64,000 bases of DNA. Source: a virus. The notes under the pieces are model-generated. The model had not been told where the DNA came from, made no database searches, and was given only the letters and a program-made list of their open reading frames with translations. Both the position numbers and the translations under genes were made by a program. Every line of letters begins with the position of its first letter. Position 1 is the first letter of the stretch. The DNA lies in IMG/VR virus record IMGVR_UViG_3300030333_002409, positions 1-64,000 of that record. One strand, written 5' to 3'. Below, in pieces: positions 9,001 through 24,747 of the stretch.

Positions 9001-9774
9001 GGTGGATTCGCGGCACAGATTATGATTGGTCTTCTACAGACCGCCATCACTGGAAAGAATACTAATCTGGCACAAGTCGTGCCTATTCAGTTAGCCGCAT
9101 GGACTTCTGTCTTGCAGAAACTAGCAAGTGGAGATATGTCTAGCAGTGAAGGAATTGGCGAAACCTTCGCTAATCTCTCGCGTCTTATCCCCGGATTTGG
9201 TGAAGCACTTCCGAGAGCTGGATACCAGCTTCTCAATAACGCATTACATGGGGATATCATGGGATCGAAAACTAGACCCGGACGGCCTAGGAGAATCGCA
9301 GGACCGGGAAGAGTTGCTGATCGAATGAGACAGGAGCATAGAGAAGCAGAGCCAAACCCAATGTTCTCGACCCCAGCTTCTAGAGATCTTATGAATAAGA
9401 TTAAGAATAAGGGAGCTAGGGATCATTATTGGGACGGATCAGATACAGGTCTTCTCATGGGCATCCTTAACGAAATGTCCCGGAACAACATTAACGCAGT
9501 TCCCCTTATCAATCCAGTGACTGGAGAAGAGGCGGTGAAGGGATTCTTAGGCAAGAACAGAGGTCTAGGTTCTGAGTCTTCAATACCTCAAGAAGAGACG
9601 CAAGTTCCACAAGAGCCTCAGACAGCTCCTGAGCCATCTCAGGTTCCAAGCACTCCTCAGGCATCCTCCACTTCTGAGACGGCTCCTGAGCCATCTCAGG
9701 CCCGTACAAAGGATCCTGTGGGGACGCTAGGTGGGGAGACTGTTAAGGAGGCTCCACCTGAGATATTCACTTAA
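1..9774 (+). CDS. Giant virion-associated polyvalent protein with zincin motif (5' end outside window)
   Basis: The frame is open from the first base, so the gene starts upstream of the window; at least 3,257 residues are visible, ending at TAA 9772-9774. A HELAH zinc-peptidase motif is encoded at 5350-5364, preceded by DVIS and followed about 50 residues later by NPEEF, the spacing of the third ligand seen in zincin domains of phage polyvalent proteins. Hydrophobic or amphipathic helices are encoded near 8850-9200 (for example LIWDALYMSILQVAAG), suggesting contact with a membrane. The C-terminus is low-complexity Pro/Ser/Gln with a short internal repeat. No T7-like RNAP motifs were seen, so it does not look like an N4 virion RNAP. 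By position (end of the late operon) and size I infer an ejected or internal virion protein; the protease activity is an inference from the motif. Confidence 0.75.
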   Translation, partial: PESQKEATSELIEEVVITFLQLNDLELGDWGGTAAGRTQVGWQPANELGMGIATLLSGKAEGTTYARAIDPSSQEVLELDGRATERTILNDSLKPTDLVPGELNHFAPNKTSVLRKLKEDFKIRARIRHIINHDLTAEEVQEFFDWASDLEKEGLLPEEFLGDVPMGMSLVAQISNRTPMTAPADLQRKRQILLESVIDMPHALYSFIHDSQTIANGQKLFFKTPMELFAKAIKDGTYTDEAGNPKERVGQLTEEEKQEIIENNPRVALYHGQVNKKTGKVEGAPQFSAGTPTGAVSLAGIAYVMGWERTYPALDGLSEVALEEGISYLEEYPGTPLENLYSEATYFDKSFNGKHHFHAMLLDINDDSISKDLNRIADMIRRKDPTLKDRSDYQLKEFETDEYIETSRLVRRSLDKIIKDGPAEDGAITEEEIEHLKVVRDLFYFGEDEGPFNLSDDVIADKYEEQRAFWKMPIMVRLYSAGQPAIRREIEEFSRTRGYVTKGMTSGVQQTFTKFLVGQGILQRNVVLDEALRMGGDEKISVMKLLKKDLGPLAKQRLDELKRSAGQSIEIELDPTTTLKDRLDQRIRFIAAMTGKSEAEVRKHFQKRLDKANKFLEDRGVSSHTHLSPEEMEQYQQILCYDADAWRNMPFLRNLNMMGGTGHRIDKTSRVEQETSGWLEVTDSDLMMNEDGTGGVMDQLWYHTFAPDLAGNRTHSTRHDGFQTQGTEFGRVRSEQNKHGMWNLEHNSVYKVYTDAIKDGDTEVEARAKAQLEMDKLLVKDLSIKLAGAAKPRFGKFEDKTDSEFLTAWESRSEIANDAYQKAKRKEESLKSTIERFGLGHEQGAKAAEALERMRKNHGLPSERAFIQEEDGLSQRHTRIIDTSNPAGLAAFRPKMASVNFHDRGNLMLRKLYWERKKRNLEEAANRREEMIASGRYAYHGESLFPKESRGFSHMYDMDTLPFIPDGNFDFRTELLMDQHIGHSRLKARAKNSLIRFAKQNGLEHWLTEGRVADLWILMRVNTIKSDHAWRVAKGQGRYREVYENAEGMDKKRIEQMRRERDRRAYLDDFWSLFRTQHDAENFESRLGEMFPSGGIPATKPGLFNPDIYRKEKARLLKDGKLEAKEIETLARQEASKPEHNTYMKIWGRYNEPTNNLKALTMSLVPNEHIILVEGEAGGGIDLTELAELPLSVQGNDIFDIMNYQQANEDVRKTIDELVAEGLELTEAYEKTNPGQTLTLDKLSDPHKRAAFVLSKMESISNGKETDIPLKERLWEIRDADAMREVHRIAKDRGAFTNLDNFNLYVYADSEGSYRTIVTKEEILDPAIPRTQSPKAGGERRAGPLGGRATKVKGSLWRFRLTPEGAFLMMNGINNIRAQERLELATIINTTVGEETALSEKLTNRPFFNQRNEEAILADVLDELTREFSNGEVDGVRKVTHGYQGYRGQQLKVLDSMSYLFPSARRRAPGQRELHVEADLLPLRKVQRLLNKLGQTEEAANIQKLIDSDVEAAVALGILLRFEAEANKTIKNDIESGILPEELTNESITPEHLEIFVNLENTEAAYVKAVDLLQRINAISDRGVKDNPWYFRVRNRLESNTRIEIQADKTDPSRGMVSLQQPGIDTLAEDLGATTHADRIAVRKAVLQMVQHDHEFGIAEGTDYAWLTEVDPFEMSSDDGFRTHFNAQRGDARSDPHAMRIADQIESLRENGVLTEEQADIARLVISQAIIKNPAIIENLHLASDKSIAALGQKGSAHFKEGKYLITFDETIESTPDLIDVISHELAHIGVMKFIREGGMEWAQAEAILNTARGKEMMWEFVKTFHGGRMTTEARQLYDRYTENPEEFMVQYTSYVMQRDSLYNTGALRKIETKYRPEVGALKAVLRKIGGFYSKLLHDIQQVFDLYKETDSVLYDRMERLASRIQGLALDKSAIEALDPTVETERFIQIKPFVHEGTTHILRGQNDLPPGAILNDTNPAYLRTLSEKKEVTDLIRRAKGRIARLKALDPRSITAAETTELRGLETVLADSITKKAELDRIISEGAYGVDQFGLTREKFEGGLDRIRRNAGEQDPDTGEWTFHVHKLDGIEDQKVYMSYILRNTSLELGDKISENLAGLIRHGFGNGWGKDILDQVQRTLLSGTKAGHTFLSPNAFFVLLSSMVEDGGFTSTNVYHNKMGVKSLASVRVQMDRIRSRIKTEGEMIWAEFGDNAPRVLKAANLMSRGLWETNQIPGMSEAEIQAAKDYNDTYQFALDLLYQRAKDVGLVSQDPSRTPSTPVVYKIKKEVNVTPGQQKTFLDKMAPLIADQLRLENSASRLDHITLFLSDIIPNHLKFVPGRPTFGLEWDAMMANDPEIGKYLEDQAFLNYVKEQDPSLETVDAESLLTDVTFEEHRQRWYGSEDGTILPIVDNESKLHHRKRTLSNILHRARHSNASIDTVFENASTEIKLNIMHRYNDAIDSPSELVQEKINWTRLHRKTFDSYLGYKPFSEEFQSDSLSDAKMPITSPQSWHTATFYSKAISSAFAPYDSEFYPSAEQINADAELAGLFEVDLSKILTGFITGLGTDASQRQLLKTLTKSNISFPGLLDMIGNIAEKSTLYDNEGNPIQGGEGSNLQTSLDVQRRKYNIMTGIGVNYVQSGDRIIDALGEHGQDMIRLVYGSNLGTAITMVEGNIVAANQLIQMHEIGNFVTTPLRWMQGLSKAKRMEMAEEIAYLLSHTSRDLAGGDDPYLNEVLTEDEKASGLMSKLQRGHMAVSKYADLQARVAASLTGRRFVLRKIKNGSLEALIEKIESTPQADMPKSQNEWKGFLRDIKGLGVRNHRIVLMLKKADLLSPRALKVFKSLLTETGGYDGAYSLIDISTHIMGGGTTDVSSDTEEMLSILSGLDRFDKEFTSQYLIDHRVMDSATDPTAAAKMINAYRNFPYSFAIQRMIRDSSNMSIHGFLAKQLYHLIWDALYMSILQVAAGRDLYEIIEEWKERPIGTALKYIARYPGFGPWGGFAAQIMIGLLQTAITGKNTNLAQVVPIQLAAWTSVLQKLASGDMSSSEGIGETFANLSRLIPGFGEALPRAGYQLLNNALHGDIMGSKTRPGRPRRIAGPGRVADRMRQEHREAEPNPMFSTPASRDLMNKIKNKGARDHYWDGSDTGLLMGILNEMSRNNINAVPLINPVTGEEAVKGFLGKNRGLGSESSIPQEETQVPQEPQTAPEPSQVPSTPQASSTSETAPEPSQARTKDPVGTLGGETVKEAPPEIFT
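9625..9700 (+). repeat. 19-bp direct repeat in the C-terminal Pro/Ser tail of the giant gene
   Basis: The sequence GCTCCTGAGCCATCTCAGG occurs at 9625-9643 and 9682-9700, 57 nt (19 codons) apart, encoding APEPSQ twice in a PQEPQ/APEPSQ-rich tail. This looks like recent slippage or duplication in a flexible linker. Confidence 0.85.
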
Positions 9775-9929: not shown

Positions 9930-10247
9930 ATGGAATGTGAATACTGTAAAGAACGGGAAGTTAAGAAGCTTCGAGAAGACTTAATAAAATGCCAGAAGAG
10001 CTCAAAATCTAAAGACATGAAGCTGAAGGCACTGAACAAACGAGTATTCATATGTACTCTCGTCGGCGTAGCGATAGCTGCTATCTTCGGGAAGGAAGCT
10101 CTGGATGCTATCACGGAATGGCTGGGGTCTGTCAACAGCTTCCGCTCACAGGTCCTCAGTGACGCTACTGGGGTCTATCCCTCTCCGGGTACTCTTGGGG
10201 TATTTGCCGTCGCTGCATTGGTCTGTCGGCCTCGTAGGAGACGCTGA
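9930..10247 (+). CDS. Early membrane protein with CxxC head and PEP-CTERM-like tail
   Basis: 105 residues. The N-terminus has CEYC followed by a Lys/Glu-rich, probably coiled-coil stretch, then a hydrophobic segment (residues about 39-54, FICTLVGVAIAAIFG). The last 20 residues run PSPGTLGVFAVAALVC-RPRRRR, which has the three parts of a PEP-CTERM sorting signal: a short Pro-x-Pro-(G/S)-T motif, a hydrophobic helix and an Arg cluster. Such tails are known from exosortase-containing Gram-negative bacteria, not typically from phages. A purine-rich AGGGGG lies about 10 nt before the ATG. It is the first gene after the late operon. Its function is unknown; the tail could also be just a second membrane anchor. 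Confidence 0.7.
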   Translation: MECEYCKEREVKKLREDLIKCQKSSKSKDMKLKALNKRVFICTLVGVAIAAIFGKEALDAITEWLGSVNSFRSQVLSDATGVYPSPGTLGVFAVAALVCRPRRRR

Positions 10248-10274
10248 GGAAATCGGTAGGGGGTCGCGAATCTC

Positions 10275-10341
10275 TAGAGGGGGTGGGTAGAATAAAAGTT
10301 TTCGAATCCCCCACGTACCCCCTCTATCAAAAGGATTTTTT
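10275..10341 (+). terminator. Strong hairpin followed by T-run (terminator or processing site)
   Basis: TAGAGGGGGT (10275-10284) pairs perfectly with ACCCCCTCTA (10317-10326), giving 10 bp around an AT-rich loop; six T follow at 10336-10341. The same stretch carries the AAGGA ribosome site of the next gene, so folding could also affect its translation. The T-run is 9 nt away from the stem, which is far for an intrinsic terminator. Confidence 0.5.
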
Positions 10342-10344
10342 AAG

Positions 10345-10707
10345 ATGGACATCAAGTCACACCGTATTGCTGGACGTAGCGCTCACGATCTGTTCTACTA
10401 CACTTCCGTGGTTATTGAAACAGACACGGCTCGCTGTCCTTGGGTTTTCTCTAGGGAAGATGACTCCCACGCCATCTACCAGATGGATCCAGAGACCGTC
10501 GTAACAAAACGGAAGATTGATTGCACCTCACGGCTTAACGGTAAGTCCTACTGTTATTCCTATGTTCATCGTGTGGAACACAGTCCCATCACGGGTGAAC
10601 AGATGTACATCGTCCATGAAACATTCGTGTTTCATGATGGTGATACGATACAGGAACACAAAGGCTACGTTAGCTTCACTGAGTGCATGAGTCAGATCCC
10701 AGTCTGA
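10345..10707 (+). CDS. Hypothetical early protein
   Basis: 120 residues, no family recognised. It looks soluble and mixed alpha/beta, with a His/Asp-rich second half (VEHSPITGEQ, ETFVFHDGD) and four Cys without a clear metal-binding spacing. The ATG has AAGGA 9 nt upstream. It stands alone between two strong hairpins, like the other early genes, and codon use is GC-richer than in the late genes. Likely a host-takeover or early regulatory protein by position only. Confidence 0.75.
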   Translation: MDIKSHRIAGRSAHDLFYYTSVVIETDTARCPWVFSREDDSHAIYQMDPETVVTKRKIDCTSRLNGKSYCYSYVHRVEHSPITGEQMYIVHETFVFHDGDTIQEHKGYVSFTECMSQIPV

Positions 10708-10722
10708 CATGGCCGAAACCTC

Positions 10723-10744
10723 ATGCCGCCCTAACGGGCGGCAT
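10723..10744 (+). other. Intergenic hairpin (9 bp, TAAC loop)
   Basis: ATGCCGCCC and GGGCGGCAT pair perfectly around TAAC; outer AAACC/GGTTT extends the stem. There is no T-run, so an mRNA processing or stability element fits better than a terminator. Confidence 0.6.
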
Positions 10745-10809
10745 CGTGGTTTGTCGTGGATGAACTCACGGCACTGATGAGGCAGTTCCCTTAACTAAGG
10801 AGGTTCACT

Positions 10810-10989
10810 ATGAACCTAGAACAAAGAGTAGAAGCTCTCGAACAAAAGCTTGACGCGTTCTTCGCCAACGAGTACCCACGAGTCCGTAACATTGTGGACA
10901 AACGTGAGGAGGAACGCAAGGAAGAACCCTTGGTCATTCTCGGTCAAGGTGAGTACAGGATGAAGATCTACCCCTCTGACATTAAATGA
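10810..10989 (+). CDS. Small coiled-coil early protein
   Basis: 59 residues starting MNLEQRVEALEQKLDAFF, a clear leucine heptad pattern, then a Lys/Glu-rich linker and a short beta-like tail ending SDIK. The start has AAGGAGG with good spacing (10798-10804). No family recognised; oligomerisation through the N-terminal coiled coil is likely. It stands in the hairpin-separated early region. Confidence 0.75.
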   Translation: MNLEQRVEALEQKLDAFFANEYPRVRNIVDKREEERKEEPLVILGQGEYRMKIYPSDIK

Positions 10990-11041
10990 TGGTAGTCCCA
11001 TCAAGCTATGAGCACCAGCTTAAAGGGCTTAGGAGTTTGAT

Positions 11042-11266
11042 ATGGAGAAAACCCGTATCCACTTCTGCGTCTCGTGCGGCCCTGTCGATGACGAGCTCTA
11101 CCAAGAGTACGTCATGGCAGGCGAGCTCATCGAGTACCAGCATGGAGATAGTGACACCGGTCACCGTCTTCAGGCTGAGCTCGATGGGCGGTACGAGGTC
11201 GTAAAGATTCAGTGCCGTCAGTGTGCCTACCTAGAGGCGCACGGGTCTGATCATTACGACTCGTAG
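11042..11266 (+). CDS. Small putative zinc-ribbon protein
   Basis: 74 residues. Two Cys pairs, CVSC near the N-terminus and CRQC near residue 58, are spaced as in a treble-clef or ribbon zinc site, with an acidic middle (DELYQEYVMAGELIEY). The start is preceded by TAGGAG at 6 nt. The gene lies between the coiled-coil gene and a folded RNA segment. Function unknown; the metal site is inferred from the Cys spacing only. Confidence 0.7.
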   Translation: MEKTRIHFCVSCGPVDDELYQEYVMAGELIEYQHGDSDTGHRLQAELDGRYEVVKIQCRQCAYLEAHGSDHYDS

Positions 11267-11280
11267 CCTAACGAGACGCT

Positions 11281-11366
11281 ACAACGTCCCTCTGACGAGC
11301 CTTCGCGGTCGAGAGGGGCCTCATACCTATGCATTCCACGGAGTGCATACGTATGAGGCTTGTTGT
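11281..11366 (+). ncRNA. Predicted three-way-junction RNA element
   Basis: ACAAC (11281-11285) can pair with GTTGT (11362-11366), enclosing two abutting hairpins: CCCTCT...AGAGGG (11288-11317) and a long one with GCCTCATAC/GTATGAGGC (9 bp), a C-C mismatch and TATGCA/TGCATA (6 bp), 11318-11359. Fold deduced by eye. It may be a stable small RNA or a processing signal between early messages. Confidence 0.5.
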
Positions 11367-11485
11367 CTCTATACCCTACGACTACAGCCACGGAGCCAAG
11401 GAAAGGCTACCGGCTAGTAGTGTGTGCAAGAGCGGAGAAGGATCTCGCTCCGAGACCATACACACGGTTAGGAGCCTCTACTCTG

Positions 11486-11530
11486 GACAGGCGGACTTGA
11501 GGATGGGCGGTCCGCTTTGTCTTTCTTTTC
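11486..11530 (+). terminator. Hairpin plus pyrimidine-rich tail
   Basis: GACA-G-GCGGAC pairs with GTCCGC-TT-TGTC (11486-11521), followed by TTTCTTTTCC. This resembles a weak intrinsic terminator ahead of the gene at 11557. Upstream, GTGTG...CACAC and GCGGAG...CTCCG pairings (about 11420-11466) suggest the whole leader is folded. Confidence 0.45.
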
Positions 11531-11556
11531 CTGTTCCCATCGAATGGAGTTTCCTC

Positions 11557-11751
11557 ATGCCTAAGTACAATATCCAGATTCAAGTCGCCGGTCACATCAT
11601 CCTCGATGTGGTCGAGGCTCAGGATCCGCCTCATGCTGTCCGTATCCTCAACGAGATGGGCATCCGGGACGGTGAGTACGAGCTGCCATCCTCTGTGGTG
11701 GCTGAGGCTGAGGCTATGGTGCGTGAGTCTAACCGGCTCACTCATGGCTAA
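11557..11751 (+). CDS. Small hypothetical early protein
   Basis: 64 residues, beginning MPKYNIQIQVAGHIILDVV and ending in an acidic helix (SSVVAEAEAMVRESNR). The frame is open upstream to an ATG at 11329, but that codon sits inside the long hairpin at 11318-11359; the ATG at 11557 has GGAG 8 nt upstream and is the sensible start. The fold looks like a beta hairpin followed by helices. No family recognised. Confidence 0.7.
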   Translation: MPKYNIQIQVAGHIILDVVEAQDPPHAVRILNEMGIRDGEYELPSSVVAEAEAMVRESNRLTHG

Positions 11752-11764
11752 TGCCTGAGGGTGT

Positions 11765-11859
11765 GTACACCTACGGTGGGTAGGTGTACCATCCCCCATG
11801 CATTGGTTGAAGGTCATATGTTTGACCGCCGGTACATGAGGTCCGTCCCACCGTGGGAC
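11765..11859 (+). other. Intergenic hairpins before gene 11885
   Basis: GTACACCTA/TAGGTGTAC (9 bp, 11765-11789), GGTCA/TGACC (about 11812-11827) and GTCCCA-CCG-TGGGAC (11845-11859, 3-nt loop) follow one another. The fold is inferred; no T-run follows, so RNA processing or protection is more likely than termination. Confidence 0.5.
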
Positions 11860-11884
11860 ACATTCTCTTGAAAGGAGAATTATT

Positions 11885-12373
11885 ATGAAGAAGCAGATTA
11901 TCTCTCAGCGTGGTTTCATCCTCCACAATCGTCGCTCGACGATGGTGACGGTGAACACCAGCGGCAGGTCCAACGGGATCTACACCGTCATCCGGTCCAC
12001 GACCGGTACGGTGGAGAAACTGGAGGCTGCGGAGATGGTATCGCTCGTCAACGAACTGACCGCTGAGGGGTTCTCCCTCCGGTTCTGTTTCGGTGTGCGA
12101 GTCGAGGCCCGTGTGCGTCTGACGTTGAGCCATGCAGATGGCTGCGTCACCGCATCGATCAAGGGCGGCATTACGCTGTTCGAAGGTCACACTGGCTTCG
12201 AGATCGACCACTCCACCAGTGGGTCCTGTGCTCAGGAGGTCAAGGATGCTACCTACAGCTGGTTTAACGACCGGTTCGGTGGCAAGCCGCGTCTCCTGAG
12301 TGAGGATGGCGAGGCTCTTGACTTCGGGACCGAGGCTAAGGCTTCGGCTCCGCGTCAGCGTCTCCCATTCTGA
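11885..12373 (+). CDS. Hypothetical early protein
   Basis: 162 residues, start after AAAGGAG (AAAGGAGAATTATT-ATG). Beta-rich first two thirds (VTVNTSGRSNGIYTVI, RFCFGVRVEARVRLTL), then a tail rich in Gly/Glu/Ala ending RQRLPF. Codons are strongly C/G-ending. It sits immediately upstream of the array of hairpins at 12374-12745. I do not recognise a family. Confidence 0.75.
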   Translation: MKKQIISQRGFILHNRRSTMVTVNTSGRSNGIYTVIRSTTGTVEKLEAAEMVSLVNELTAEGFSLRFCFGVRVEARVRLTLSHADGCVTASIKGGITLFEGHTGFEIDHSTSGSCAQEVKDATYSWFNDRFGGKPRLLSEDGEALDFGTEAKASAPRQRLPF

Positions 12374-12745
12374 TCCCCTTCTTCGCTCGTCGCAGCGAGC
12401 CTAAACAGGCCTTAAGCTGCGAGCGGCCTGCCCTTCGGGGCAGGTGTGGCTTACCCGCTTCCTTTGGGAGCGGTGTGTCCGCTCTGTGAGGGCGGACTGG
12501 ACGTTCCCGCCTCCGTCCTATGGCGGAGGACCGCACGATGGCGGCGGTCTGTAGGAGCCACGAGGATCCCGTCTAAGGCCATCCCTCCCTAAGGAGGGGT
12601 ACGAGACCCCTTAGGGGCTTGGGAGCTCTCTATGGAGCTCTCCGGGCCTCTCAAGGCACGCTAGTGTGCGTGTGCGTGGGGGTCTGCTTTTTTCATCGTC
12701 CCTATGGGGACACAGCAGCCACCATAGGTGGCGTAAGGAGTTCAC
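12374..12745 (+). other. Chain of about twelve consecutive hairpins, no gene
   Basis: This 370-nt gene-free stretch is almost entirely small perfect or near-perfect stems: 12385-12400, 12427-12444 (CCTGCCC-TTCG-GGGCAGG), 12455-12473 (8 bp, TTT loop), 12477-12497 (8 bp), 12510-12529, 12529-12549, 12583-12598, 12607-12617, 12623-12640 (GAGCTC twice), 12656-12669, then six T at 12688-12693, 12698-12711 and 12719-12731 (CCACC-ATA-GGTGG). The T-run after the tenth stem may make part of it a terminator. The density is far above chance and suggests a structured RNA. Confidence 0.7.
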
Positions 12746-13267
12746 ATGAACGATAGACAATACCGAGGATCTCTCTGCGGAGACCACCTCCACCCTGATG
12801 AGGTGGAGTCGATGACGCAGACTTGGACCGGTAAGTTCCGGTATAGCGAGGATATCTCCATAAAGTGGGAGATTCTCCACTGGACTTCTCCGGATAACCG
12901 TAGGCCAGTGCCTACTCCAAGGTTTCCGGATCCGAGCGATGACCTCATTGGAGGTCGTGATGGCTGGAACATCTATCTTTATCTTCCCGCAGATTTCATC
13001 TGTGATTATGATAATGATGACTGGTCGAAGGTGTCGGACTACGACTTCGGTGAGCTGGTTCCCTACTCCTTTGGAGAGGTTACTTGGGCGACCCGTGTCA
13101 CTGAGTTCGGAACCAAGTACCTCAAGTTGGGCAATGATTACAATCATTCGTTCAACGATGCCTACTATTCGTTCGAGGAAATCTTCAAGGATCTGTCCAA
13201 GATTCTTGCTGAGTTCCGCCCTCCTTCGGAGCCCTTTGAACTTCCAAAGGGTTTCAATGAGGATTGA
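12746..13267 (+). CDS. Hypothetical early protein
   Basis: 173 residues, ATG preceded by TAAGGAG at good spacing. Rich in aromatic and acidic residues (DGWNIYLYLPADFICDYDNDDW; NDYNHSFNDAYYSFEE), predicted acidic overall, with a long C-terminal helix. No family recognised. It lies between the hairpin chain and the RNAP1 gene, so it is an early gene by position. Confidence 0.75.
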   Translation: MNDRQYRGSLCGDHLHPDEVESMTQTWTGKFRYSEDISIKWEILHWTSPDNRRPVPTPRFPDPSDDLIGGRDGWNIYLYLPADFICDYDNDDWSKVSDYDFGELVPYSFGEVTWATRVTEFGTKYLKLGNDYNHSFNDAYYSFEEIFKDLSKILAEFRPPSEPFELPKGFNED

Positions 13268-13275
13268 ATCGGGCT

Positions 13276-13360
13276 CCCTCCCTGAAAGGGGAGGGTGTCT
13301 ATTTGACCACTAACTCTTGGGTGGCTTGGTCAACCACCGAACCGTATGGTGCTAAGCACC
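13276..13360 (+). other. Three hairpins in the RNAP1 leader
   Basis: CCCTCCC-loop-GGGAGGG (13276-13295), TTGACC..CCAC/GTGG..GGTCAA (13303-13333) and GGTGC-TAA-GCACC (13348-13360) precede the RNAP1 ribosome site. The last has a 3-nt loop and contains the upstream ATG at 13346, which argues against that codon as the start. Confidence 0.6.
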
Positions 13361-13372
13361 AAGGAGGAACAA

Positions 13373-15475
13373 ATGAAATCATTTGATCTTCAACTCAAGC
13401 GTGAGGAGGCTCTTGTTGAGCCGACTCGTACTCGCTCCTTCCGTAACGCTCAGCGTGCCGGTGGAGACGGCGGCTATGCCGTCGCAGTCGTGGATGAAGT
13501 CGGTCGCTCGCTGGCTGCTGCTGTAAAGGCAGAGGTCTGTGAGGATTGGGCTGAGACCCAGCCTTGGTTCCCTATGTGGAAGGTGCTGTCACCTGACATT
13601 GTGGGTATCGAGATGATCGCTGCCATCCTCGATGTTGAAATCTTGGGTGAGTCTGCCCTCGAACAGGTCGTTCTCGACAGGTTCGTGGAAAGGCTCCGCA
13701 TTACCCTTGCTTTCCTCAGGGCAAAGCAGGAGAATGCAGCTCTCTTCGAGGAGCACACTCAGCGCCTGCGTAAGCGTGGTGCTAAGTGGGCAAGCCGTGA
13801 CTCTCAGGTCCGGTTCCTTGAGGTGACCGACACGGACTTGTCCGTTGTCGAACAAGATTTGCTCCGCCGGGTAGGGATGGTTGTGTTGGGGATCGCCGTT
13901 GATTCTGGACTCATCCAGAAGGATAAGGAGAACTCCAAGTTCTACTTGTCTCTGACCCGCTCATGGCGGCGGCGCATTCACCGGAACATGGAAGGGCGTG
14001 CCTTAGCACGACCCATTCGTCGACCGATGGTGCATCGTCCCAAGGACTGGAACGAGGCAGGTGTGGGTGGAGGATACCTGTCCAAATGGATGGCGTACAA
14101 CCTCGTTGATGGCGATAGCCTCGCCTCACCTATGGTGGTGGAGATGGCTAATCGGATGCAGTCCGTAGGGTACTGCGTCAATGAGCAGGTCCTGAAGCTC
14201 GCCTTGCGTGGGCTGAAGGGTTACCGCTCATCCAAAGATGCGGTTGATGGCAAGGTCCTTCGGGCAGAAGCCTCTCTCAAGGAGGCGGAAGCCTTGCTCA
14301 ACACCACCTTCTACTTCTGTGTCAAGTGTGACTACCGTGGTCGTGTGTACTACGTCAGTGACATCCTCAACCCTCAGGGTTGGGACCTTGACCGAGGGCT
14401 TCTCCGCTATGCGGAGGGGTGCGAACGCACGCCTGAGGCGTTGCGTTGGCTGAAGATTCACACTGCCAACAAGTTTGGCTTTGACAAGGAATCCTTCGAG
14501 GATCGTGTCAAGTGGTGTGATGAGCGATTCAACGAAATGCAGGCGGATCCCGTTGCCTTCTGGAAGGGCAACGACCCCGGCGACAAGGACCGTTGGTCAT
14601 CACTGGCTGCGGTACTCGACCTCGTTGGGGATGGTCCCATCACTACTCCGATTCAGGTCGACGCGACCTGCTCGGGACTTCAGCACTTGTCAGCAATGGC
14701 AGGTGATGAAGCAGTCGCCGTTGCGACTAATGTGATGCCGTCTGAAGACGGGATGCGTTGCGATCCTTACGTTGCCACCGCTGAAGCCTGCGGTCGGAAG
14801 CGATCTGAGGTCAAGCAAGCCGTGATGTGCATCCCCTATGGCATTAGCCTCTCGGGGATGATCGATCAGTTGATCGAAGAGGGCATTGAGCCCGACCGCC
14901 TCAAGGCTACAGTCTTGGCTGAAGACATCTGGGCCAGCTGTGAGGAGCTGATGAGTGGAGTACTCTCCATTATGAAGTTCCTCAAGGCTGGAGGACGAGC
15001 GTTGGCGGAAGCCGGTGTTCGTCCTCAGTGGACAACCCCTTCGGGGTTTGTCGCTGTGATGCCAACCGCTATCCTGAAGCGGCGCATCAGCATCATGGAT
15101 GCCAAAGGCAACATGGTGAAGACCCAGTTTGGTATTGAAGCAGCCGATGAGGTTGACCCCAACCAAGTTGTCCGTGGCATGGCTCCGAACTTCGTTCATA
15201 GCTATGATGCGGCACTGGTTGCCCTTGTGGTATCCCGTTGGGATGGACCAGTTACCTGCATCCATGACTGCTTCGCTACCACTGCGGACCAGATGGACGC
15301 ACTGCGAAATCTGATCCACGAGTGCTTCGTGGAACTGTATGGAAGCGATGCGATCCAGAAGGTACGCAATGAGTTTGTCCACTCAGCTCCGCTGGGGGTC
15401 AGCGTACCGCTGCCGCCAGTCCGGCGAGAGATGGACCTCAACCGCTCGCTCGAAAGCGAGTACATGTACTCCTGA
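13373..15475 (+). CDS. Single-subunit T7-like RNA polymerase 1 (RNAP1)
   Basis: 700 residues; T7 RNAP has 883. The start at 13373 follows AAGGAGG with 5-nt spacing; an in-frame ATG at 13346 lies in a hairpin. All catalytic motifs are visible: DYRGRVYYV (T7 DWRGR), motif A VDATCSGLQH with Asp430, motif B with Lys481 and Tyr489 (K-x7-YG), and motif C HDCFAT with Asp632. The C-terminus LESEYMYS matches the T7 LESDFAFA foot. The shorter length comes from a reduced N-terminal domain and 40 or so residues missing between motifs A and B. Codons are GC-rich, unlike RNAP2. It is probably transcribed early by the host polymerase and then transcribes phage promoters; which ones is unknown. Confidence 0.95.
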   Translation: MKSFDLQLKREEALVEPTRTRSFRNAQRAGGDGGYAVAVVDEVGRSLAAAVKAEVCEDWAETQPWFPMWKVLSPDIVGIEMIAAILDVEILGESALEQVVLDRFVERLRITLAFLRAKQENAALFEEHTQRLRKRGAKWASRDSQVRFLEVTDTDLSVVEQDLLRRVGMVVLGIAVDSGLIQKDKENSKFYLSLTRSWRRRIHRNMEGRALARPIRRPMVHRPKDWNEAGVGGGYLSKWMAYNLVDGDSLASPMVVEMANRMQSVGYCVNEQVLKLALRGLKGYRSSKDAVDGKVLRAEASLKEAEALLNTTFYFCVKCDYRGRVYYVSDILNPQGWDLDRGLLRYAEGCERTPEALRWLKIHTANKFGFDKESFEDRVKWCDERFNEMQADPVAFWKGNDPGDKDRWSSLAAVLDLVGDGPITTPIQVDATCSGLQHLSAMAGDEAVAVATNVMPSEDGMRCDPYVATAEACGRKRSEVKQAVMCIPYGISLSGMIDQLIEEGIEPDRLKATVLAEDIWASCEELMSGVLSIMKFLKAGGRALAEAGVRPQWTTPSGFVAVMPTAILKRRISIMDAKGNMVKTQFGIEAADEVDPNQVVRGMAPNFVHSYDAALVALVVSRWDGPVTCIHDCFATTADQMDALRNLIHECFVELYGSDAIQKVRNEFVHSAPLGVSVPLPPVRREMDLNRSLESEYMYS

Positions 15476-15545
15476 TTGAACGGGGTGCGTTACGGGGCTC
15501 CTCCCTAGGGGGGAGCCTCGATACCTGTGCCGTTCAACCAACAAA

Positions 15546-15569
15546 GGTGGGCAAAGCCCACCAATAGAA
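15546..15569 (+). repeat. Hairpin-AATAGAA unit 1 (possible hairpin promoter)
   Basis: GGTGGGC-AAA-GCCCACC forms a perfect 7-bp stem with a 3-nt loop and is followed at once by AATAGAA. An AGAAAGAC/GTCTTTCT hairpin comes directly after, so a transcript starting here would carry a 5' stem-loop. Confidence 0.65.
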
Positions 15570-15689
15570 AGACGTATGTGTCTTTCTAAGGGAAGGGGCA
15601 TAGGGTACGGGGATACCTTCATCTCATGATGAGGAGCCCCCGCCCTACTTCGGCGGACGGTGGGATGCAAAACATCTCGGCGGACCGGA

Positions 15690-15713
15690 GGTGACCAAAG
15701 GTCACCAATAGAA
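15690..15713 (+). repeat. Hairpin-AATAGAA unit 2
   Basis: GGTGACC-AAA-GGTCACC, then AATAGAAGAG. Relative to units 1 and 3 two stem positions changed on both arms, so pairing is preserved. The AATAGAAGAG end resembles the SP6 promoter start region (ATAGAAGAG). Confidence 0.65.
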
Positions 15714-15720
15714 GAGGGGC

Positions 15721-15775
15721 AGTGTTCGACTACTTACCTGTGGATTGCAGGGTCAACACTTAGATAATCCACAGG
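15721..15775 (+). ncRNA. Predicted H-type pseudoknot (or two-state RNA switch)
   Basis: AGTGTT-C-GAC (15721-15730) pairs with GTCAACACT (15752-15760), 9 bp with one bulge; CCTGTGGATT (15737-15746) pairs perfectly with AATCCACAGG (15766-15775), 10 bp. The two helices interleave (a-b-a'-b'), with loops of 6, 5 and 5 nt. Either a compact pseudoknot forms or the helices are mutually exclusive. It begins 7 nt after unit 2's AATAGAA, so it would be the 5' end of a transcript starting there. Confidence 0.55.
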
Positions 15776-15857
15776 CTACCCCAGACGGCAGAGCACGGGT
15801 TTGTTGGAGGCTGGGTGCGGCGGACGTAGACCTGCCAAGAGTAACAAAGGTCTAGCG

Positions 15858-15881
15858 GGTGGGCAGAGCCCACCAATAGAA
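15858..15881 (+). repeat. Hairpin-AATAGAA unit 3
   Basis: GGTGGGC-AGA-GCCCACC followed by AATAGAAGA. The stem is identical to unit 1; the loop differs by one base. A GGTTG/CAACC palindrome and TGGAG/CTCCA hairpin follow downstream (about 15900-15940). Confidence 0.65.
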
Positions 15882-16025
15882 GAACTCGTAGCAGTGACGG
15901 TTGTACAACCTAGGGACTGTAATGGAGTTTGCTCCACCTTTAGCGGGGTGGACTGAACGACGCCTCGGCAGAGGTACAGGTCCTGCACATGGACCCGTGT
16001 TAACTTATTCCCGATGTGCCGGGTT

Positions 16026-16065
16026 AGCTGATATCTGTAGGTAGGAAATCAGCTGGACAATAGGA
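16026..16065 (+). repeat. Degenerate hairpin-AATAGGA unit 4
   Basis: AGCTGAT (16026-16032) pairs with ATCAGCT (16048-16054) with a 15-nt loop, then GGAC-AATAGGAGA. It keeps the AATAG and the preceding stem but not the tight loop, so membership in the family is uncertain. Confidence 0.35.
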
Positions 16066-16176
16066 GACGCCTCCCAGTGGGGAACTGGGTCATCACTCCC
16101 CAACTTTCTGCATCCAAGGAATATCAGACTTGACTCTGGTATCCCTTAGGTACAGAACCTAGAAAGGATGTGCATT

Positions 16177-19728: not shown

Positions 19729-20720
19729 TGTCACACGAAATGTATGAGAACGATAGTGCTATGTACTACAAAGAGAAGGCATGGCACGGGCTGGGTACTG
19801 TGGTTGAGAAAGCATACAACCCACGCCAAGCTTTGGAGATGGCAGGTCTTGACTGGACTGTTGAGCAGTCCGATTACTTGCAGGTCCACCTCCCCGATGG
19901 GGACAGCGTGATTGACCACAAGCATCGTGCTAATGTGCGATCAGATACTCGAGACATTCTTGGGTGGGTAGGTACACAGTATCAGCCGCTTCAGAACCAC
20001 GAGCTAGCAGAAATTGCTTACAGCCTTAACGGAGAAGACTCTGTTGTTGAGTCTTGCGGTTCACTGTTTAATGGTGGACAAGTATACTTCTTGATTCGAG
20101 GTGAGTCCTTCGATACAGGCAACGGCAACGACACAGTGGAGCGATACATGCTGCTGACTAACGGGCATGACGGCAAGCTCCGTGCTACTGCTAAGCCTAC
20201 GTCTGTCCGTGTGGTGTGTAATAACACGCTGACGATGGCACTGAACCAGCAAGGGCAGAGCTTTGGCTTTACCCACAACGGAGACATGGCTGTTAAGATT
20301 CAGGAAGCGAAGGAAGCTATGGCTATGTTCCGTGAGACTGGTCAGTTCTTCAAGGATGCTGTTAGCGTACTTAACTACCGACAGGTCACGACCGAAAGCG
20401 TTCAGAAGTTCTGGACTGAGATCTATCAGGATCTTGTTGAAGAAATTCCTATGAATCCTGAGAACAAAGAAGAAGAGAGAGCTAAGAAGAAGGCAAAGGT
20501 TACCCTGTCTACATGGGCAGAAACCTTTGACAACGAACGCCAAGTTGCTGGGACTAATATGTGGAATGCATTCAATGCGGTAACAAATTGGATGGACCAC
20601 AAGACTCGGTACAACGGCACGCCTGAGAAGAAAGCTGAGAATCGTTTGCACTCTAACCTTTGGGGTAAGAGTGAGACGAAGAAGAAGCAAGTATTCAAGG
20701 CAGCACTGGCAGCGTCATGA
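19728..20720 (+). CDS. DUF932 / phage-plasmid conserved protein
   Basis: 330 residues. The N-terminus (AMYYKEKAWHGLGTVV) and the downstream GWVGTQYQPLQNHELAEI and TNGHDGKLRATAKPTSVRVVCNNTL are the hallmarks of the DUF932 / TIGR03299 family, common in phages and plasmids, of unknown function. Full length for the family. ATG overlaps the preceding TAA (TAATG), and its end overlaps the next gene (ATGA). The C-terminus is Lys-rich. Confidence 0.85.
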   Translation: MSHEMYENDSAMYYKEKAWHGLGTVVEKAYNPRQALEMAGLDWTVEQSDYLQVHLPDGDSVIDHKHRANVRSDTRDILGWVGTQYQPLQNHELAEIAYSLNGEDSVVESCGSLFNGGQVYFLIRGESFDTGNGNDTVERYMLLTNGHDGKLRATAKPTSVRVVCNNTLTMALNQQGQSFGFTHNGDMAVKIQEAKEAMAMFRETGQFFKDAVSVLNYRQVTTESVQKFWTEIYQDLVEEIPMNPENKEEERAKKKAKVTLSTWAETFDNERQVAGTNMWNAFNAVTNWMDHKTRYNGTPEKKAENRLHSNLWGKSETKKKQVFKAALAAS

Positions 20721-21241
20721 GTAGGCTCATTGATGAGCTTATGAATGTACACGCCGAGCTCGCAAGCAGGGAGAACTTTAGCTCCCTGCTTGTGGGCCAG
20801 TGTGCTTTAGTAGAAAAGGATTACATATCTTCTATTGCGGCTGCGTTACTTACTCTTGGTGGTAGGCATGGGCCTACTGTACAAACAGTTAAGTTTCTAT
20901 CTAAGATAGGAGACTTTGATCCTACAGTGTACTATAAACATGGTCTAGTTATCCCCGGATGGGGCTCAGCTTTTCATAAAGGCGAGCCTGACCCGCATTT
21001 CGATACACTAGATGGCTTCTTGTTCGAAGATAATAACTCTCTTTGGGCAAAGATTAAGGAGTATACTAATAAGATTCACGATACAGGTAAGATACTGTAC
21101 CCTAACGCTGCTTGCTATACCGCAGCTGTTGCTATAACAGAAGGGATACCAGCAGAAGTTTCTCCCTACCTACTCATTAAAGGTAGGCTAGATGTGTGGA
21201 CAGATCTTTACCTAAAGAATAAAGGAACCAGACTTCCGTAG
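20717..21241 (+). CDS. Reduced citrate-synthase-like protein
   Basis: 174 residues. Three blocks appear in citrate-synthase order: GGRHGPTVQ (51 = His of the HGGA block), VIPGWGSAFHKGEPDPHF (78-95, as VPGFGHRVYKxxDPR) and LYPNAACYTAAVAITEGIP (127-145, as PNVDFYSGLVxxxLGIP), then IKGRLDVWTD near the end (as AIARTxGWxAH). Citrate synthase has about 400 residues, so this is roughly the small domain. The catalytic His of PGFGH is Ser84 and the catalytic Asp of PNVDF is Ala132, so catalysis is unlikely. It could bind CoA or a metabolic enzyme. The stop codon lies inside the following tRNA. Confidence 0.65.
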   Translation: MSRLIDELMNVHAELASRENFSSLLVGQCALVEKDYISSIAAALLTLGGRHGPTVQTVKFLSKIGDFDPTVYYKHGLVIPGWGSAFHKGEPDPHFDTLDGFLFEDNNSLWAKIKEYTNKIHDTGKILYPNAACYTAAVAITEGIPAEVSPYLLIKGRLDVWTDLYLKNKGTRLP

Positions 21242-22237: not shown

Positions 22238-22269
22238 CCCTTATATCGGGTCTATGGATGCAATCCATA
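22238..22269 (+). promoter_or_regulatory. Copy 2 of CCCTTATATCGGGTCT plus 5' hairpin, before RNAP2
   Basis: The core CCCTTATATCGGGTCT occupies 22238-22253. It is followed by TATGGAT-GCA-ATCCATA (22253-22269), a perfect 7-bp stem with a 3-nt loop, so transcripts from here would begin with a stable hairpin. Located 31 nt before the RNAP2 start codon. Confidence 0.7.
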
Positions 22270-22299
22270 CACCTCAGAATGAATAACAAGGAGATGATT

Positions 22300-24747
22300 A
22301 TGTACAAATGGAATAGTATTCCCCAGCAAGAACGTGATGATAGAAAAAATCTTCAGGTTGTTTGGGAAGAAGATCTCCTTTCTATGGGCATTAATAAATA
22401 TTGGAGTGATTTTAATAGAGCTCCAGATGAGAGTGAACCTGAACAACAACTGTTAGATGCTAGTGTTATACACTTACAGCCTCTCTTCCAAGTTTGGATT
22501 GACGAGGCTGCTAAGAGACCTAGGACTCCGAGCTGGTTGATTCCTCTACTCAGTATTGGGTCATTCAAAGCAGCAGATATTGTTATTAGAAATGTTCTTA
22601 GATTAACACTAGAAGGATCTGCTTCTGGTGGGGTGGCTTCTTCCTTTAGGAAGGAACCAAGAGCACAAACTATTGCTTCTTGTATTGCAGATGATGTTAT
22701 TAATATTGTCTCGTATCAAGCAAGCAAAGAACAATTTAGAGATGATTGGAAAAGACAGTCTAAGTTTACTAAGAACTGGTCACCCAAGAGATGCTTAGCC
22801 TTTACTAAAAAGTTAGGAAACATTCCTCAATTACCTAGGAAAGGAAAGCAAGACTTCGGACATGCTATGCTTAGGATAGCACTGCTATCTGATATCTTAG
22901 TGGCGGACAAGGTTAGAATAAAACCAAACTCACGGTGCAAAACAAAGGAGCATATATATGTCCGATTAAATGATAAGATTTTGGAGGAGCTGCACACTAA
23001 GCACCACCTTCTAGAACTCTCTTCTCTCATATATCGACCAATGATTGCTCCTCCTTTGGACCACCTTCCAGAAGAACCCGGAGGTAATTACTTACGGTGG
23101 ATTAGAAAACCTACAGTTAAACGATACGTAAACAATAGTAGGGTCGAAGAGGATAAGATCACACAGCACTGCTCAGAGCTAGTACTAAAGGGTCTGAACT
23201 CTCTTCAACAAACTGAGTGGTCAATCAATGAACCGGTCCTCCGAGTAATGGAGGACTTCTTTGAAGGCAACACAGCTTTAGCTAATCTCCCGACCTACGA
23301 CTTTGAAGGATTCTCCATGAGGAAGTATCCTCAAGAGGGTAGTAAGGTTGAGCAGGGTCGGTGGATGGCTGAGCGTGAAGAGAAGTGGGGTAAATGGTAT
23401 AGGGATGAGCAAAAGCGGGGGCGTATGTTAGTTAGAATGCATCTAGCTAATCAACTTATCCCGCATGGATGGTTCTACCACCCGTACAGCCTAGACTTTA
23501 GAGGAAGAGCATATACAGCATGCGAACTTCTATCCCCACAAGGTGCGGACTTTGATCGAGGGCTTCTGTTGTTTGCGAATGCTAAGAAGCAAACCCCAAG
23601 GGGATTGTATTGGCTTAAGGTTCACACGGCTAATCTCTTTGATCAAGATAAACTTCCTTATGATGAAAGGGTGGCATGGGTTGATGAGAATATGCCCATG
23701 CTTATGCGTATTGCTGAAAACCCTTATGATAATAAGGAGTGGGTTTCCGATAAAGAAAAGAAGAACCCTTCCTTCCAGAGATTGGCAGCGTGCTTTGAGC
23801 TAGCCAGAAAGGATGGGCTTACTCAACTTCCTGTCCAACTCGATGGGGCTTGTAACGGATCCCAACACTGGTCAGTTATTATGGGGGATGAGACTGTAGC
23901 GGAACTTACTAATGTTATTGGAAGCCACTCTCCTCAAGATCTCTATGGATTTGTAGCTCAGCAAACCACTGACATCATCGCTAAGAACGAAGATGATCTT
24001 GATTGGTTTGTTACATTTATGGATCACTGGCAAGAAGGCATTGAACGTGCTGTAGTCAAGAGACCTACAATGTGTGATGCTTATGGCCTAACCTTCTACG
24101 GTATTCAGAAGTATCTTAAATTGGAGGGACACCTTGATTGGGTTCCTCGTGATGATAGAGGTGGTGCTGTAGTCGAGATGGCAAGAGCTGTCCAGCAGGG
24201 ACTAGGCATGACTCTAGATATGCCTAACAAAGGAAAGGATTGGTTAAAGGAAGTAGCTTCAGTGGCCAACCTATCAGAGAAACATTTAATCTGGACTACT
24301 CCCTCAGGATTTATTGTCGAACATGTGTATCAGCCTATTAGACAACGCCGGTCTTACACCGAGTTGTTTAATCAAAAGAAATTTGAACTGGTCTTTGCAA
24401 ACTATTACGATGGTGTTAACGCAAACGGACAGGAGCTTGGGATTGCTCCGAACTTTATTCACAGTTTAGATGCTGCCCATATGTTCTTAACTCTTATTAG
24501 ATTACTACAAAAGAACGTTGATTCATTTTCCATGATTCATGACTCCTATGGTGTACATGCACCTGATGTGGACATCATGAATGAATGTTTACGTCAAGCG
24601 TTCATTGAAATACATAAGGAGAATGTACTTGAAACGTTCAAGCAGGATGTCGAGGAGTACCTCGGCATCGTCGCTCCGCCAATCCCCAATCCAGCCGGAG
24701 GACTTGACCCCGCCTGTGTCCTCGACTCCGAATACTTCTTTAGTTAA
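22300..24747 (+). CDS. Single-subunit T7-like RNA polymerase 2 (RNAP2)
   Basis: 815 residues, closer in length to T7 RNAP (883). The ATG at 22300 has AAGGAG at ideal spacing; the in-frame ATG at 22258 lies in the promoter hairpin. Motifs: SLDFRGRAYTACELLSPQG (T7 DWRGR block), motif A LDGACNGSQHWS with Asp515, motif B with Lys587 and Tyr595 (VVKRPTMCDAYG), motif C IHDSYG with Asp748, and a C-terminus LDSEYFFS like the T7 foot. Codon use is AT-richer than RNAP1. Directly preceded by the repeated 16-nt element, so it may be switched on by RNAP1 or autoregulated. Likely the polymerase of the middle or late genes. Confidence 0.95.
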   Translation: MYKWNSIPQQERDDRKNLQVVWEEDLLSMGINKYWSDFNRAPDESEPEQQLLDASVIHLQPLFQVWIDEAAKRPRTPSWLIPLLSIGSFKAADIVIRNVLRLTLEGSASGGVASSFRKEPRAQTIASCIADDVINIVSYQASKEQFRDDWKRQSKFTKNWSPKRCLAFTKKLGNIPQLPRKGKQDFGHAMLRIALLSDILVADKVRIKPNSRCKTKEHIYVRLNDKILEELHTKHHLLELSSLIYRPMIAPPLDHLPEEPGGNYLRWIRKPTVKRYVNNSRVEEDKITQHCSELVLKGLNSLQQTEWSINEPVLRVMEDFFEGNTALANLPTYDFEGFSMRKYPQEGSKVEQGRWMAEREEKWGKWYRDEQKRGRMLVRMHLANQLIPHGWFYHPYSLDFRGRAYTACELLSPQGADFDRGLLLFANAKKQTPRGLYWLKVHTANLFDQDKLPYDERVAWVDENMPMLMRIAENPYDNKEWVSDKEKKNPSFQRLAACFELARKDGLTQLPVQLDGACNGSQHWSVIMGDETVAELTNVIGSHSPQDLYGFVAQQTTDIIAKNEDDLDWFVTFMDHWQEGIERAVVKRPTMCDAYGLTFYGIQKYLKLEGHLDWVPRDDRGGAVVEMARAVQQGLGMTLDMPNKGKDWLKEVASVANLSEKHLIWTTPSGFIVEHVYQPIRQRRSYTELFNQKKFELVFANYYDGVNANGQELGIAPNFIHSLDAAHMFLTLIRLLQKNVDSFSMIHDSYGVHAPDVDIMNECLRQAFIEIHKENVLETFKQDVEEYLGIVAPPIPNPAGGLDPACVLDSEYFFS

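Follow-up and report, generated by a model that had tools for sequence, protein, structure and literature searches.

T7 promoters are A/T-rich from -4 to -1 and continue with a purine start. Downstream of the T7 RNA polymerase (RNAP) gene, promoters are annotated 26 and 101 nt past the stop codon, and CACTATAG is found there twice. Promoters phi1.1A and phi1.1B of T7, like phi2 and phi3 of LUZ100, form a cluster just past the RNAP gene and share one reading direction. The LUZ100 RNAP gene ends at 6686, and phi2 (6707-6756) and phi3 (6752-6801) are both annotated within 115 nt of it. The LUZ100 promoters were mapped by ONT-cappable-seq, according to an excerpt of PMC10134795. In SP6, ACACTATAGG occurs about 110 nt after the RNAP coding sequence, with the promoter placed there by sequence only, and the stretch after the RNAP gene contains ACACTATAGGACTA and ACACTATTGAACTA. 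A palindromic AACGTGTTGGACA also stands 5' of both promoter-like sites that follow this gene (about 2998-3013 and 3170-3185 of SP6, L031).

As described in an excerpt of PMC4496689, T7 promoters are linear duplex sites from -17 to +6, and N4 has three early promoters, at which a loop purine on the template strand is recognized. The N4 early promoters are used by the virion RNAP (vRNAP), for which hairpins with stems of 5-7 bp and a 3-nt loop are characteristic; those compared here have a 7-bp stem and a 3-nt loop, and some stem positions are conserved and others vary. The locus described here lies after an RNAP gene, as the T7 sites do, and carries hairpins of the N4 size. We consider it probable that it is a tandem promoter array for a phage T7-class RNAP, most likely the polymerase encoded directly upstream.

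A T7-like phage with two RNA polymerases

The window is the whole stretch of 64,000 nucleotides that was analyzed, taken from a viral record of 66,697 bases (IMGVR_UViG_3300030333_002409). The record is a T7-like phage that is larger than its Autographiviridae relatives. Its primase-helicase is of T7 type (Pfam), and a DNA polymerase, a head-tail adaptor, a major head protein and a terminase were identified with PHROGs; the terminase is nearest to Autographiviridae, at about 37% identity. The two ends of the record match at 99 of 100 positions when their outermost 100 bases are compared. An open frame of about 4960 aa spans the junction (window 61501-64000, the record end, and window 1-9774) and encodes a giant late protein, of which a 3208-aa part has no Pfam or PHROG match. 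A 174-aa ORF at 20717-21241, with a weak Pfam match to the citrate synthase C-terminal domain (4.5e-07), ends at a tRNA-Arg gene. Two polymerase genes were found:

13346..15475, + strand: RNAP1, single-subunit RNA polymerase of the T7 class, 709 aa in the ORF list or 700 aa counted from ATG 13373; Pfam PF00940 8e-48, PHROG 414 7.9e-114
22258..24747, + strand: RNAP2, second T7-class RNA polymerase, 829 aa in the ORF list or 815 aa counted from ATG 22300; Pfam PF00940 1.9e-84, PHROG 414 1.5e-151

Alignment with the T7, SP6, BB8, KSC and N4 RNAPs places catalytic motifs A, B and C in RNAP1, and RNAP2 likewise keeps the catalytic motifs when aligned with other RNAPs. The two proteins are 27% identical in a full-length alignment. 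A search of open-licence PMC papers found none on Autographiviridae with two T7-class RNAPs. A structure prediction of RNAP1 from four sequences has a mean pLDDT of 32.7 and supports no reading here.

The GC content is 52-57% in 2-kb segments between 10 and 16 kb, as opposed to 41-49% in all others. This GC-rich stretch (10000-16100) contains small genes, ribozymes and RNAP1, has the array at its right-hand end, and is possibly a separately acquired module. It includes a Pistol ribozyme at 12385-12451 (65.8 bits) and, at 10711-10791, a probable type II hammerhead ribozyme that scores 30.8 bits, below the gathering score of 37.

Three hairpin units downstream of RNAP1

The array sits in about 700 nt of non-coding sequence 3' of RNAP1, and the following features, all on the + strand, were recognized in and around it:

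15493..15520, + strand: GC-rich hairpin between the RNAP1 stop and unit 1 (alignment and folds)
15546..15562, + strand: unit 1 hairpin, GGTGGGC-AAA-GCCCACC (sequence)
15563..15571, + strand: unit 1 tail, AATAGAAAG, putative +1 at G15567
15565..15588, + strand: 9-bp hairpin TAGAAAGAC/GTCTTTCTA at the putative 5' end of the unit 1 transcript (inverted-repeat search)
15690..15706, + strand: unit 2 hairpin, GGTGACC-AAA-GGTCACC (sequence)
15707..15716, + strand: unit 2 tail, AATAGAAGAG, putative +1 at G15711
15711..15793, + strand: conserved RNA module with two interleaved helices, AGTGTT/AACACT and CCTGTGGATT/AATCCACAGG (alignment and helix search)
15858..15874, + strand: unit 3 hairpin, GGTGGGC-AGA-GCCCACC (sequence)
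15875..15884, + strand: unit 3 tail, AATAGAAGAA, putative +1 at G15879

Each unit is a perfect 7-bp, 3-nt-loop inverted repeat with AATAGAA directly 3' of it. The three copies (15546-15569, 15690-15713 and 15858-15881) start 144 and 168 nt apart and share the 24-nt consensus GGTG(GG/AC)C-A(A/G)A-G(CC/GT)CACC-AATAGAA. The coordinates and sequences given in a sequence-only reading of this DNA are thus confirmed, as is its placement of the array right downstream of RNAP1, which ends at 15475. The fourth, weaker unit that it proposed did not hold up: the site at about 16027-16067 has a 7-bp stem with a 14-nt loop, followed by GGAC and then AATAGGAGA. Its tail is missing from the mismatch search because it has more than 3 mismatches to CACCAATAGAAGA. 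When all matches with at most 3 mismatches to CACCAATAGAAGA were read by eye, no further stem-bearing copy was seen in the 66,697-base record.

Perfect inverted repeats of at least 7 bp with a 3-nt loop number 15 in the window and average 4.3 over 60 runs of a first-order Markov simulation. Of the 15, three are followed by the same 7-mer; the simulation maximum was two, reached in 1 of the 60.

Several explanations of the repeats were set aside. A coding reading meets at least 4 stops in every frame in both this genome and the relative described below, and the conserved block after unit 2 contains 4-nt and 1-nt indels; the relative holds one non-conserved 116-aa open frame in the array stretch. 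An intrinsic terminator would need a U-run, and on the + strand the hairpins are followed by AATAGAA; only unit 1 among the three scores as a terminator, on the minus strand. Rfam gave four matches to the array, none a ribozyme and all far under their gathering scores. For a mobile-element hairpin or a CRISPR-type repeat, no matching gene was seen among the scanned ORFs. The minus-strand loops TTT and TCT recall the TTC and TCC loops of N4 and suggested a leftward reading; nothing is conserved on that side.

The units could also act as RNA. A long read-through transcript that also carries self-cleaving ribozymes would then be protected at its end, or processed, by way of the hairpin and a single-stranded AAUAGAAGA. 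The early region of both genomes does contain type II hammerhead and Pistol motifs, the relative having one Pistol and three tandem type II hammerheads, and RNA folds of both genomes show all three hairpins within strongly structured stretches (z-scores of -8.84 from 20 shuffles and -5.49 from 100). Phage transcripts have been proposed to be cut by multiple hammerheads, as stated in an excerpt of PMC3088659. The units themselves match none of the ribozyme families, and even at E 10 the Rfam matches stayed at chance level. A ribozyme would usually be larger than the conserved portion, which is about 26 nt long and is not flanked by a conserved helix. The unit 1 tail UAGAAAGAC is itself paired, a state that an invariant single-stranded motif would forbid. 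We regard a role as RNA as unlikely.

Conservation in a second genome

The only relative in which the units were found, G001 (contig IMGVR_UViG_3300038307_000123, 51,094 bases), encodes an RNAP1 that is 87% identical and an RNAP2 that is 80% identical to those of the window genome. The specificity-loop regions of both polymerases are nearly identical between the two genomes. G001 also carries three units and no more, in which the two stem types occur in another arrangement than in the window. Watson-Crick pairing is present in 42 of the 42 stem cells of the six units; sliding the pairing partners as a control leaves 24-52% of cells paired. Of the seven stem pairs, five are invariant and the other two differ in both bases (G-C to A-U and G-C to C-G); no pair has a change confined to one arm. 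The covariation score was matched by 2 of 500 shuffles in control (a); as there are just two stem types, this counts as weak evidence.

The sequence downstream of unit 2 (GAGGGG...CAGTGTTCGACTAC) identifies it as the same site in both genomes, and its stem is GAC/GTC in one and GGG/CCC in the other. Both arms therefore changed together at one site, which may reflect either a compensating mutation or copying of a whole unit. The joint change of the arms noticed in the sequence-only reading is thereby extended to a second genome, but its conclusion that pairing itself is under selection was too strong, because the six units comprise only two stem types and the same symmetry would be expected at a site bound by a dimeric DNA-binding protein. 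The covariance search that it proposed for related genomes did find both-sided changes at two pairs, in one relative with units and two stem types.

Such a protein is the basis of another explanation, in which the palindrome is an operator over a promoter and the symmetric changes are those of two half-sites. A perfect 17-bp palindrome with 7-bp half-sites fits a dimeric repressor, and symmetric changes are equally expected from an operator and from a hairpin. An excerpt of PMC10134795 proposes that a MarR-like protein controls a phage promoter in LUZ100. On the other side, a Pfam scan at E 0.1 of 20 small ORFs located from 9.9 to 33.7 kb, most of which have no assignment, found no helix-turn-helix family, and the center is fixed as A-R-A in all six units, which would be odd for an operator. 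An operator seems improbable to us.

AATAGAA is present in all six units and AATAGAAGA in five. The region from -17 to -5 is conserved except for two paired positions and the loop center, which vary between units of one genome. Conservation begins at the hairpin on the left and ends soon past GAAGA on the right; the sequence between units 1 and 2 can hardly be aligned between the two genomes. After unit 2, window 15703-15793 is 89.6% identical to G001 over 96 columns. The interleaved perfect helices of the module at 15711-15793 suggest a possible pseudoknotted small RNA, with a plain MFE z-score of only -1.43.

Queries of a viral contig collection with the sequence and alignment of RNAP1 and RNAP2, two hairpin patterns, a pattern for the module after unit 2 and a second-motif pattern returned units in G001 only. 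Among the 22 hairpin-pattern matches listed, 3 are in G001 and 19 elsewhere, and the stem is formed only by the 3 in G001. A genome contig collection yielded no match to RNAP1 and two matches to the hairpin pattern, neither with a stem, and no DNA similarity was found in a phage collection. A third relative (L048, contig IMGVR_UViG_3300030117_000915) is a 22-kb fragment with about 72-79% DNA identity over the replication and neighboring genes. RNAP1 has no match in it, hence the fragment is uninformative on the units, for which the evidence base is two genomes and six units.

The units as a probable promoter array

The start sites, the promoter activity, the assignment of a polymerase and the role of the hairpin are here deduced from the DNA, and the reading that we prefer is a promoter array. 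A phage single-subunit polymerase of the T7 class would start rightward at the three units, with +1 at the G of AATAG (G15567, G15711 and G15879). The 3' arm of the hairpin would then occupy -11 to -5, AATA would be the melted element at -4 to -1, and GAAGA would be the initial transcribed sequence. The likely products would be small structured RNAs and a transcript of the following gene block from 16.2 to 22 kb, up to RNAP2. The inverted repeat would be an added, conserved portion of the recognition region; the polymerase may read it as a hairpin or as duplex sequence, or may share it with a dimeric protein.

Location, start region and 5'-leader context are the best support for a promoter array. 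The putative +1 positions lie 92, 236 and 404 nt from the RNAP1 stop in the window and 98, 232 and 541 nt in G001, so that the array follows the RNAP gene as the promoters of T7, LUZ100 and, by sequence, SP6 do. The string CACC-AATA-GAAGA resembles by eye the T7-class CAC(T)-ATA-G core, and an A/T-rich and then purine initiation region, which would span -4 to +6, is kept in a repeated intergenic unit. Like the sequence-only reading, we also take the GAAGAG of the units to resemble the SP6 start. Unit 3 of G001 stands directly 5' of a ribosome-binding site, AACTAACTAAGGAGG (AAGGAGG), followed by ATG. In both genomes a hairpin starts at most 2 nt from the putative +1 of unit 1, despite different arm sequences (GAAGAAGC-ATGT-GCTTCTTT at the equivalent place in G001); starts of perfect hairpins of at least 7 bp with a 3-8-nt loop occupy 57 of the 64,000 window positions. 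A hairpin also occupies the position in G001 that matches window 15493..15520, upstream of unit 1, and its sequence is another one (alignment and folds).

Some observations count against promoters. T7-class promoters are usually dispersed over the genome, and the units number three per genome in one cluster. Specificity in T7 is carried by promoter positions -10 and -9, and these positions vary between units of one genome. The leader hairpin of window unit 1 (15565..15588) is present in the long fold and absent from the MFE structure when just 45 nt, counted from the start of unit 1, are folded.

A second element, (T/A)ATCGGGTCT (CGGGTCT class), is repeated at window 9781, 22242, 26797 and 33162, at about 31651, 43219 and 47713 of G001 (reversed) and at 1418 and 7812 of L048 (reversed). 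It precedes RNAP2 and replication genes; of its four copies in the window, one lies immediately before RNAP2. Several copies are followed by a 7-bp, 3-nt-loop hairpin (TATGGAT.CAATCCATA, TATTGATAGAATCAATA and TATTGATGCAATCAATA), and these stems vary on both sides between genomes. The element is a candidate promoter class of the other RNAP, and it could equally be a promoter of either polymerase. Since the units adjoin RNAP1 in the GC-rich stretch and the second element precedes RNAP2, the arrangement that we favor as probable assigns the units to RNAP1 and the second element to RNAP2.

How the inverted repeat may be read

The sequence-only reading had joined a promoter array to recognition of hairpins, by analogy with N4. 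The second part is only partly supported. A polymerase that recognizes a hairpin extruded from the duplex or formed in single-stranded DNA, as the N4 vRNAP does, would read the pairing and not the duplex sequence. The 7-bp stem and 3-nt loop are the sizes of N4 hairpins 557-573 and 4546-4562, pairing is perfect in the six units while two pairs vary on both sides, and the predicted DNA hairpin energies are -5.8 to -7.1 kcal/mol, as against -4.7 for one N4 hairpin. The exactly three clustered units also recall the three early promoters of N4.

The parallel fails in register and strand. The loop center is 13 nt from the putative +1 G in the units and 11 nt from the G taken as +1 in the N4 early hairpins; the N4 spacing would place +1 on a T. 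Read rightward, the template-strand loop is TTT or TCT in all six units, so the loop purines belong to the non-template strand, and there is no central purine of the kind contacted by the N4 vRNAP in the excerpt of PMC4496689. The start sequence differs as well. No vRNAP was recognized in the genome: with phmmer, the giant ORF matched neither the first 2342 aa of N4 gp50 nor nine RNAP sequences. The mixture of two stem types could be explained by one ancestral change. Recognition of the N4 kind is a doubtful account of the units.

A family of hairpins with a shared tail in at least three copies was found in none of eight other Autographiviridae genomes examined; S2B, LUZ100 and HTVC119P have some hairpin pairs with a shared tail, and the other five have none. 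The annotated LUZ100 promoters belong to no hairpin family, unlike the units, and seven of the eight contain ATTACCACACAG. For these reasons the inverted repeat seems to have been added to the usual promoter plan, and a hairpin-bearing promoter would be unusual beside the linear start signals of related viruses. A search of open-licence PMC papers turned up none that deals with hairpin promoters for T7-class RNAPs other than virion enzymes. The furthest-reaching proposal is that RNAP1, a non-virion T7-class enzyme of about 700 aa, needs the paired inverted repeat and reads DNA structure. Initiation that depends on a hairpin would then have evolved a second time, independently and outside the N4-like viruses, in another register and on the other strand, and the dedicated array would make small structured RNAs and hand over to the second polymerase. 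We offer this as a speculative and rather unlikely scheme.

Implications

If the units are promoters, a conserved inverted repeat has been added to the T7-class promoter plan, and they would offer a route to ask how this polymerase family passed from one mode of recognition, linear or hairpin, to the other. The apparent presence of two T7-class polymerases, together with two classes of candidate promoters, suggests that a polymerase cascade may operate in this T7-like phage. The genome is also a possible source of orthogonal polymerase-promoter pairs.
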